Shown here: positions 28,334 to 34,752 of the stretch, piece after piece
Layout: the number at the start of each line of letters is the position of its first letter
Numbering within the stretch: the first letter of the stretch is position 1
Origin: Promethearchaeota archaeon
GTDB taxonomy: Archaea; Asgardarchaeota; Lokiarchaeia; Sigyniarchaeales; SOKP01
Length of the DNA stretch: 34,752 nt
Reading direction: 5' to 3'
Assembly: GCA_020344955.1 (NCBI GenBank)
Contig: CP070831.1
Coordinates: forward strand, 743,540-778,291
Made by a program: the position numbers and the translations under genes
The notes under the pieces: generated by a model
Database searches by the model: none
Told to the model about the DNA's origin: nothing
Seen by the model: only the letters and a program-made list of their open reading frames with translations

Positions 28334-29755
28334 TTAAATGTTTTTTAGTTGAAAACTTCTTAATTCTTTAAGAAATACTGAATCTCCTTTCTTTGCCAGC
28401 CTATTTTTATCTTTAATCCCTACTATTACAGCGCCTTTAGTGCCAAATGGATTTAATATCTTGGTGAAGGGAGGTTCTAGCACCTTTCCAATTATCTTTT
28501 TTGCCCCAACTGCGCTTTGAGCTAATCCTGTACATATAATACCCTCGGGATGATTTGGATTCTTAATAATTCCTTGTTTTATCTTATATTTATAAAATGT
28601 TGGTGGCTCGTTATGGATTTTTAATAACTCTGCTGATCCTAGTATTCTTAAAGTGGTTGGAGGTAAATCTAATCGACTTAATAATATGATTAAATTTTCC
28701 TTTCTAATCAAAACTTTTTCTTTAAATAATATTACTGCGTTAAATCCTCGATCTTTACTTGAAACTTCTGCTTGAATTCTTTTTCCATCCATTTCATTGT
28801 AAGGATAAATTTGACCAGTAGTAGTAAACATTCCTATAGTAACATGAATTTGGGTACCAAAACTAGTTTTAGGTTTAAAGAGTTTATTATTATTCACTTT
28901 CACTTCAATAACTTTACATTGTTCGAAAGCATTAGGATTGGACGTAGCATAGCAACCACGATAAACTTTTTTCAAATCAATACCTTTTATATTAATACCG
29001 ACTCTATCACCAGCTTTAGCTGAATCAACATTTTGGTGAAATATTTGAATATTTTTAACTCTACCGGAAGTCTTAATAGGTAAGATTTCTAAGACTTGAT
29101 TTAATTTTAGCATTCCTTTCAATACAGTACCAGTTAAAATTGCACCCATACCTTTTATAGGAAAATGATGATCGATAGGAATTATTATATCTCCTTTTAC
29201 ATTCCTGTTAATTTTTAAACTCTTTATAATTTTTAATATTCCTTCTTTTAATTCTTCAAAACCTTTCTTATCTTTTGCAGAAATGGCAAAAATCGGTATA
29301 TCAGAGCCAAAAGAGGTTGATCGAAAAAATTCTCTTGTTTTTTCAATCTCGTCTTTAACATTTCCCGAGAAAAGATCAATCTTATTAAGAACAACAATAA
29401 TTTTATCGATCTTTAGAGATTCTATCATGATGAGATGTTCCCCAGTTTGAACTTGCGGACCTTTATTAATATCAATAACAATTAAGGCACAATCAATGAT
29501 TTCTACTGATGATGCGCTAATTTTAATTAAATCAGCATGGCCAGGACCATCTACTAATGTAATTAGATATTTGTCAATTAGAAAACTAGTAAAACCTAAA
29601 TCTATGGTAATACCTCGTTCTTTACTTTGCGGATGTGCATCAATACCTGCTGTAGATATTATTTCACTAAGTACATCCGCTATAGCAGTTTTACCAGAAT
29701 CAATATGACCGAATAATCCTAAATGTATAGGAATTTTATCTCTTATTGCCATCAT
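28334..29755 (-). CDS. selB: Selenocysteine-specific elongation factor (SelB/eEFSec)
   Basis: A 473-residue translational GTPase that delivers Sec-tRNA to UGA codons. G motifs are complete: G1 GHIDSGKT (16-23), G2 GITIDLGF (48-55), G3 DGPGH (69-73), G4 NKID (124-127) and G5 ISAKD. GITIDLGF with the short variant after it is typical of eEFSec/SelB and not EF-1alpha, which reads GITID in a different context. Domains 2 and 3 follow, with GMGAILTGTVLKG near 207, and the C terminus ends with GTKGAVIVGIKDKNRLAKKGD, close to archaeal SelB length (about 470) and without the bacterial winged-helix tail. It is consistent with the tRNA-Sec and SepSecS genes 4.6 kb downstream on the other strand. A first ATG is followed directly by a second. 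Confidence 0.93.
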   Translation of the reverse strand: MMAIRDKIPIHLGLFGHIDSGKTAIADVLSEIISTAGIDAHPQSKERGITIDLGFTSFLIDKYLITLVDGPGHADLIKISASSVEIIDCALIVIDINKGPQVQTGEHLIMIESLKIDKIIVVLNKIDLFSGNVKDEIEKTREFFRSTSFGSDIPIFAISAKDKKGFEELKEGILKIIKSLKINRNVKGDIIIPIDHHFPIKGMGAILTGTVLKGMLKLNQVLEILPIKTSGRVKNIQIFHQNVDSAKAGDRVGINIKGIDLKKVYRGCYATSNPNAFEQCKVIEVKVNNNKLFKPKTSFGTQIHVTIGMFTTTGQIYPYNEMDGKRIQAEVSSKDRGFNAVILFKEKVLIRKENLIILLSRLDLPPTTLRILGSAELLKIHNEPPTFYKYKIKQGIIKNPNHPEGIICTGLAQSAVGAKKIIGKVLEPPFTKILNPFGTKGAVIVGIKDKNRLAKKGDSVFLKELRSFQLKNI

Positions 29756-34209: not shown

Positions 34210-34289
34210 TTTTTTATACTAATTGAATACAATATTTACTGACTATACCATTAAATATAACCAAAAACTTCTTTTAAAAAGATAAATAA

Positions 34290-34331: not shown

Positions 34332-34456
34332 GGCTCTTGACGGTTAGAATCTTATATCACTAAAGATATAGATAACCACAGTGGTCTCTGACGCTGGGCT
34401 TCAAACCCAGTTATCCTGTGGAGGGATAGGGGTTCGATTCCCCTCGAGGGCCGCCA
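34332..34456 (+). tRNA. selC: tRNA-Sec (UCA), with a D-arm intron and encoded CCA
   Basis: The gene fits archaeal/eukaryotic tRNA-Sec. The acceptor stem has nine pairs (34332-34340 with 34444-34452, two of them G-U), the discriminator is G34453, and CCA is encoded (34454-34456). The T stem has four pairs (34429-34432 with 34440-34443) and a TTCGATT loop: the 9/4 layout. The anticodon stem is 34394-34398 with 34406-34410 and the loop CTTCAAA holds TCA at 34401-34403. The long variable arm is 34412-34416 with 34424-34428. The D arm is normal only if 34348-34379 is removed: the D stem then reads GTTAGAG with CTCTGAC, seven pairs, around a TGGT loop. The mature RNA is 93 bases. It lies 33 bases before SepSecS, which supports the identity. 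Confidence 0.95.
34348..34379 (+). other. Predicted intron in the D arm of tRNA-Sec
   Basis: The 32-base insert makes the D loop much too long. Its borders fold into a bulge-helix-bulge-like element: exon GGTT (34342-34345) pairs with AACC (34374-34377) as a 4-bp central helix, flanked by two 3-base bulges, AGA (34346-34348) and ACA (34378-34380). Cutting after the second base of each bulge gives exactly the borders stated. The inner helix is ATC with GAT, one bulged T, then TATATC with GATATA around ACTAAA. The outer helix is weak (C34341-G34381 and A34340-T34382), as in relaxed motifs. After removal the D stem pairs perfectly. Splicing has not been shown. Confidence 0.85.
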
Positions 34457-34489: not shown

Positions 34490-34752
34490 ATGGTTGATTT
34501 TAATAAAATTATCGATTTTTTTGAGCATTCAACCATTCCCGAAAACATGCTAAATAGAGGACAACTCGTTTTAAATAACTTTTTAAAACCTCTTAAAATA
34601 TTATTTGAACAGAAAAATGTTCCTAAGGAGCCTTGGAGTGATGAACAAATAGAATTCTTATTACAAACCCTTTCTAATATGGACACTGATAAAGATGATC
34701 AAGCTGCAAGGGTTGGTGAAAGAGAAGCCCGTATCGCTTCAAAATTACATTT
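34490..34752 (+). CDS. spcS: SepSecS (O-phosphoseryl-tRNA:Sec-tRNA synthase), 3' end missing
   Basis: The first 87 codons of a gene that runs off the window. The product would convert Sep-tRNA-Sec to Sec-tRNA-Sec with selenophosphate, using pyridoxal phosphate. The N terminus matches SepSecS: a first helix VDFNKIIDFFEHS, then IPENMLNRGQ, the PKEPWSDEQIEFLLQTL segment that aligns with human PENGWDESTLELFLHEL, a following NMD, and VGEREARIASKL, which aligns with VGEREGRVASAL. The last motif helps bind the phosphate and tRNA. Next to tRNA-Sec and near eEFSec, the assignment is strong in spite of truncation. The remaining catalytic lysine lies outside the window. Confidence 0.93.
   Translation, partial: MVDFNKIIDFFEHSTIPENMLNRGQLVLNNFLKPLKILFEQKNVPKEPWSDEQIEFLLQTLSNMDTDKDDQAARVGEREARIASKLH

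Follow-up and report, generated by a model that had tools for sequence, protein, structure and literature searches.

We propose that the tRNA-Sec(UCA) gene in the DNA analysed here (the window, 34,752 nt in full) is a working gene of a Lokiarchaeota-like archaeon whose D arm is interrupted by a bulge-helix-bulge (BHB) intron of 32 nt, a reading to which we give a probability of about 0.94; the Asgard setting assumed in a preliminary description of this DNA is supported by comparative evidence. The gene, its parts and the basis of each assignment are listed below.

34268-34281, plus strand: probable promoter element CTTCTTTTAAAAAG (BRE/TATA-like), from sequence comparison
34332-34456, plus strand: tRNA-Sec(UCA) gene with one intron and an encoded 3' CCA, from the sequence and from R1, a covariance model made from the tRNA-Sec of 19 intronless relatives (81.1 bits)
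34332-34347, plus strand: 5' exon, mature positions 1-16, equal to intronless congeners apart from scattered substitutions
34332-34340, plus strand: 5' strand of the acceptor, followed within the 5' exon by the first five D-stem bases
34348-34379, plus strand: intron, 32 nt, absent from intronless congeners, with a BHB at cut 16/17
34380-34453, plus strand: remainder of the tRNA between intron and CCA, from the sequence, the R1 alignment and the fold
34382-34385, plus strand: mature D loop UGGU, invariant in 19/19 intronless reference sequences
34401-34403, plus strand: anticodon TCA (UCA), from the R1 alignment
34454-34456, plus strand: encoded CCA, present in nearly all relatives too

ARAGORN reported no tRNA across the window, and no Rfam family matched in the window at its gathering score. 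At a relaxed threshold RF01852 gave a partial match (34383-34452, 38.2 bits against a cut-off of 47), whose alignment takes D-arm bases of the 3' exon as a false acceptor strand; a higher-scoring RF01852 match in the genome (43 bits, 3045343) is a tRNA-Gly and not a tRNA-Sec. R1 aligns all of 34332-34452 (E=1e-16), the extra bases falling within the D arm, and an intron at that place explains why ARAGORN and Rfam miss or misalign tRNA-Sec here. The identity features of tRNA-Sec are all present, namely the UCA anticodon, G73, a 9-bp acceptor and a 4-bp T stem. By sequence comparison, several congeners have an element resembling CTTCTTTTAAAAAG ahead of their tRNA-Sec, as does a second locus of the same assembly. 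The encoded CCA found in nearly all these genes is at odds with a published statement according to which archaeal tRNA-Sec genes do not encode it (PMC9499178).

Joined, the two exons fold into a 9/4 cloverleaf with a 7-bp D stem and a UGGU loop, the MFE structure being identical to the centroid (-44.2 kcal/mol). Across the 19 intronless sequences of R1, 24 of the 31 pairs of this fold have changed in both partners, with 98% of cells paired, so that both joined-exon folding and covariation in relatives agree with the earlier claim that removal of 34348-34379 yields the standard archaeal tRNA-Sec. The accompanying claim that the D arm cannot form in the unspliced RNA is right for the 7-bp stem with its 4-nt loop, which needs splicing, but too strong otherwise, since six of the seven D-stem pairs are possible in the precursor with the first A of the intron replacing A17. 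In the precursor this partial D stem and the BHB are mutually exclusive and close in energy: the MFE fold combines the six pairs with an extra hairpin (-47.5 kcal/mol), the BHB fold comes to -44.3 kcal/mol, and pair probabilities are about 0.40-0.44 for the six-pair D stem versus about 0.36 for the BHB helix. A partial D stem as the precursor MFE counts against the splicing model, as do an outer BHB helix of one or two pairs and the origin of the sequence in a scaffolded MAG.

The borders were located by a strict 3-4-3 BHB test, in which a cut counts as splice-compatible only if it does not alter the mature sequence, and the intron hairpin by folding.

34342-34345, plus strand: 5' strand of the BHB central helix, GGTT, pairing with AACC at 34374-34377 (strict BHB test)
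34346-34348, plus strand: 5' bulge AGA, cut at 34347/34348 (strict BHB test)
34349-34373, plus strand: intron hairpin, 34349-34358 paired with 34365-34373 with one bulged T (folding); at the second locus the stem is conserved but made of different pairs
34374-34377, plus strand: 3' strand of the BHB central helix, AACC, identical in the second locus (strict BHB test)
34378-34380, plus strand: 3' bulge ACA, cut at 34379/34380 (strict BHB test)

These are, to the base, the cuts, bulges and GGTT/AACC helix given in the preliminary description. Among the 23 distinct D introns, 21 have 4/4 central pairs at splice-compatible cuts, versus 2 of 252 other slides. The combination of cut 16/17 with GGTT/AACC is confined to the window gene and the second locus of its assembly; the remaining D introns are cut at 17/18, with GTYG pairing to CRAT and one mismatch in two cases. 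The 17/18 register of most relatives was tried on the window and is unpaired there, while the 16/17 register pairs. Exon and intron have changed together within the central helix, as in GTCG/CGAT versus GTTG/CAAT. The outer helix consists of two pairs only in all 23 D introns; a stable canonical hBHBh' structure is thus lacking and the motif is of the relaxed kind, which is an accepted part of the archaeal tRNA intron family (PMC6379350). The second outer pair of the window BHB takes acceptor base 9 (34340), and the outer helix may be down to one pair in the otherwise folded precursor; its weakness had been predicted from the outset.

The segment is missing from the 89-nt tRNA-Sec of nine genomes of the same genus. 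Six intronless genes (five from the same genus, one from the same family) differ from the spliced window sequence by 2-5 substitutions and no gap, and because they match the joined exons in this way the segment is a clean 32-nt insertion. The preliminary description had named, as the contrary case, an enlarged D arm conserved with covariation; this was looked for in relatives, and the segment is altogether absent there. At the second tRNA-Sec locus (G000:C1:1145211-1145331, minus strand) 32 nt are inserted at this very site; their sequence has diverged, but the BHB is the same and the stem is rebuilt from other pairs. The gapless orthologues, the second locus and the BHB together provide comparative evidence that 34348-34379 is an intron.

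A different outcome would be that the segment is retained, giving a mature tRNA-Sec with an enlarged D arm and an extra hairpin. Six D-stem pairs plus a hairpin are indeed the predicted MFE of the unspliced RNA, and Sun et al. 2021 noted unusual insertions in the tRNA-Sec of certain Lokiarchaeia, the word intron being absent from the main text of that paper (PMC9723677). However, many relatives do without the segment, the BHB is kept at the exact junction while loop and stem sequences drift, apart from the insertion the mature 7-bp stem and UGGU loop are preserved, and the further insertions of related genes show BHB pairing at known sites (T loop, anticodon loop). We regard retention as very improbable, and favour removal of the segment by splicing.

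Whether the window gene might be a decayed, inactive copy, with the working tRNA-Sec encoded elsewhere, turns on the second locus, whose presence is the point in favour of such a copy. It lies in a block that repeats the SelB-to-SepSecS region of the window at 76-80% nucleotide identity and encodes a roadblock-like protein, SelB, a zinc-ribbon protein, a NUDIX protein, an aldo/keto reductase (AKR), tRNA-Sec and SepSecS, the names other than SelB and SepSecS being assigned by eye or from weak family matches. A single full SepSecS is present in each congener, G004 and G017 having an additional weak partial match. Because the flanks are 76-80% identical, the congeners have one SepSecS and the assembly is scaffolded, the second locus may belong to another species present in the bin, which is at least as likely as a functional two-copy duplication; whether paralogue or second species, it is another diverged sequence bearing the same intron. 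The second locus has the same kind of intron, the window exons retain all pairs and identity bases, the gene lies directly upstream of SepSecS as in congeners, and no intronless tRNA-Sec copy was found in the assembly, all of which makes an inactive copy a most unlikely explanation. The assembly is a MAG (5.6% contamination) whose scaffolds contain N gaps, and one such gap, of 100 N, closely precedes the window. That the insertion is an assembly artefact or a strain mix is scarcely credible, for although the assembly contains 100-N gaps and the duplicated SelB/AKR/tRNA-Sec/SepSecS block (about 76-80% nucleotide identity) suggests a second species in the bin, D-arm introns occur at this place in 28 family genomes, mostly separate assemblies, and a misassembly would not be expected to produce BHB geometry at the border.

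The intron-bearing gene comes from an archaeal family in which such introns are frequent. R1 matched in 64 of 65 family genomes, the weakest matches resembling other tRNAs; 59 genomes have a complete tRNA-Sec, and in three more the gene is cut by contig ends. A D-arm intron is present in 28/59 complete genes, either alone (7, the window's genome included) or together with a T intron (21). No intron is found in 19, a T intron only in 1, an anticodon-loop intron only in 2, and anticodon-loop and T introns together in 9, while the combination of D and anticodon-loop introns was not seen among the 59. T-loop and/or anticodon-loop introns occur, for example, in L071, L081, L090 and L105, with up to two introns per gene. 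In G013 contig ends meet inside tRNA-Sec (L139, L153), one without the T intron and the other stopping at its start, hinting at a T-intron polymorphism or two copies. The two identical matches of G005 were set aside: they come from two contig ends that overlap by exactly 127 bases, which probably reflects an assembler k-mer effect. In the rest of the phylum most tRNA-Sec genes found are intronless and 87-89 nt long. One gene from another family of the order (L037) has an anticodon-loop intron, and in a distant Asgard family (L215, L216 and L217 from G160, G057 and G159) there are a D-loop insertion elsewhere and an anticodon-loop insertion, with a T-loop insertion as well in G160. Named records matching the conserved 3' half of tRNA-Sec are almost all Lokiarchaeota MAGs. 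The same 3' half occurs in LJUH01000039.1 (L130), filed as Chlamydiae bacterium SM23_39 and probably a misbinned Asgard contig.

Mapped on a SepSecS tree, a quick one with many weak forks, the intron states require at least 11 changes for the D, 12 for the T and 2 for the anticodon intron. The ratio of C14 to T14 is 24:4 in D-intron genes and 11:18 in the others (Fisher p=3e-4, kinship ignored), and a GGAG/CTCC T stem is common to 13 D+T genes. It is conceivable, though we hold it only tentatively, that the tRNA-Sec of this family forms a hot spot for intron turnover at three sites, in which intron state tracks exon haplotype across genera and whole alleles are replaced or transferred between species; such whole-allele replacement is one possible reading of the sequences compared. 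The family offers a natural series of close relatives with 0, 1 or 2 introns at three sites for studying intron gain and loss.

As for the enzyme that would remove the intron, the genome has two EndA-type genes, as do 55 of the 59 Asgard genomes searched. One subunit has an intact Tyr/His/Lys triad and finds its best PDB match in the A. pernix alpha chain; in the second, Tyr and Lys are kept, His is replaced by Ser, and the alpha4 enzyme of M. jannaschii is the closest PDB match. The ORFs of the two subunits lie at 634-1230 of L201 and 629-1246 of L200. Two paralogous subunits, one of them without an intact triad, are the mark of the (alpha-beta)2 type, and this pair would fit that broad-specificity class. 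Relaxed BHB motifs are cut efficiently by (alpha-beta)2 and epsilon2 enzymes (PMC6379350), and the early expectation that a broad-specificity endonuclease would be needed agrees with a two-subunit EndA in the genome. The Aeropyrum pernix (alpha-beta)2 endonuclease likewise combines a catalytic alpha subunit with a structural paralogue and has broad specificity for relaxed BHB motifs (PMC6379350), but the second subunit here differs in having lost only the His and in resembling the M. jannaschii alpha4 enzyme. We propose that the tRNA splicing endonuclease, probably an EndA of the (alpha-beta)2 type, cleaves the transcript behind the second base of both 3-nt bulges (34347/34348 and 34379/34380), and that the exons would then be ligated. 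Splicing would make the 7-bp D stem and UGGU loop recognised by archaeal PSTK, and the spliced tRNA would enter the SerRS-PSTK-SepSecS-SelB pathway. We infer from the sequence that cleavage and ligation take place in the cell and that EndA assembles as (alpha-beta)2, and likewise that Sec charging depends on splicing.

Two genes of the selenocysteine machinery lie in the window.

28334-29755, minus strand: SelB/EF-Sec (TIGR00475, E=7.8e-71, 239.5 bits, cut-off 242.25)
34490-34752, plus strand: SepSecS (O-phosphoseryl-tRNA(Sec) selenium transferase), N-terminal 87 codons (TIGR03531, E=2.9e-19)

SepSecS is directly downstream of tRNA-Sec, the same order as in congeners, and breaks off at the end of the window (34752), where the assembly has a 100-N gap. 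The genome also has a gene for a PSTK-like kinase, which at 144 bits falls short of the family cut-off (290.5), and a tandem pair of selD genes (G000:C1:1406684-1408816; L261, L262), both with an in-frame TGA at the Sec position of G-U-x-C-K. SelB, SepSecS, the PSTK-like kinase and the UGA-containing selD point to a Sec-using organism, in which a Sec system with a D-arm tRNA-Sec intron appears functional. PSTK reads the D arm of archaeal tRNA-Sec, so that the complete Sec-specific shape would become a product of splicing. If splicing is limiting, tRNA-Sec introns could gate UGA decoding, and in this family, which belongs to an Asgard lineage close to eukaryotes, one can ask whether Sec use is held back by splicing.

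Other archaeal tRNAs are known to carry introns in the D arm; for tRNA-Sec, none came up in a text search of the main texts of open-access papers. Noncanonical tRNA introns have been described, including in Atabeyarchaeia and Freyarchaeia, as have intron-rich tRNAs in other Asgard lineages (PMC11291895); the searched main-text passages of that paper yielded no D-arm tRNA-Sec intron. Its introns likewise occupy noncanonical positions but concern other tRNAs in general, tRNA-Sec being predicted separately in those passages. In archaea, BHB or relaxed BHB motifs mark the sites where noncanonical introns are excised (PMC6379350). D-arm introns may possibly lie behind the unusual insertions reported for Lokiarchaeia tRNA-Sec in the main text of PMC9723677. 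The remark in the preliminary description that introns in tRNA-Sec are unusual stands only in part: a 31-nt T-arm intron of Lokiarchaeota tRNA-Sec has already been reported (Mariotti 2016, as cited in PMC5330540 and PMC9499178), and the novelty is the D-arm position and the family-wide pattern, not a tRNA-Sec intron as such. The tRNA-Sec of Daphnia pulex, with two introns of 16 and 25 nt, is intron-containing too, but is eukaryotic and interrupted at the canonical anticodon-loop position (PMC5330540). Among the closest known systems, the Lokiarchaeota T-arm case, as PMC5330540 and PMC9499178 cite it, shares with the window gene the tRNA, the lineage, an intron of about 30 nt and a 7-bp D stem after splicing, and a T-loop intron of the size reported there (31 nt) recurs among the relatives analysed here; unlike that case, the window gene has its intron in the D stem, cut at 16/17, and its T arm is uninterrupted.
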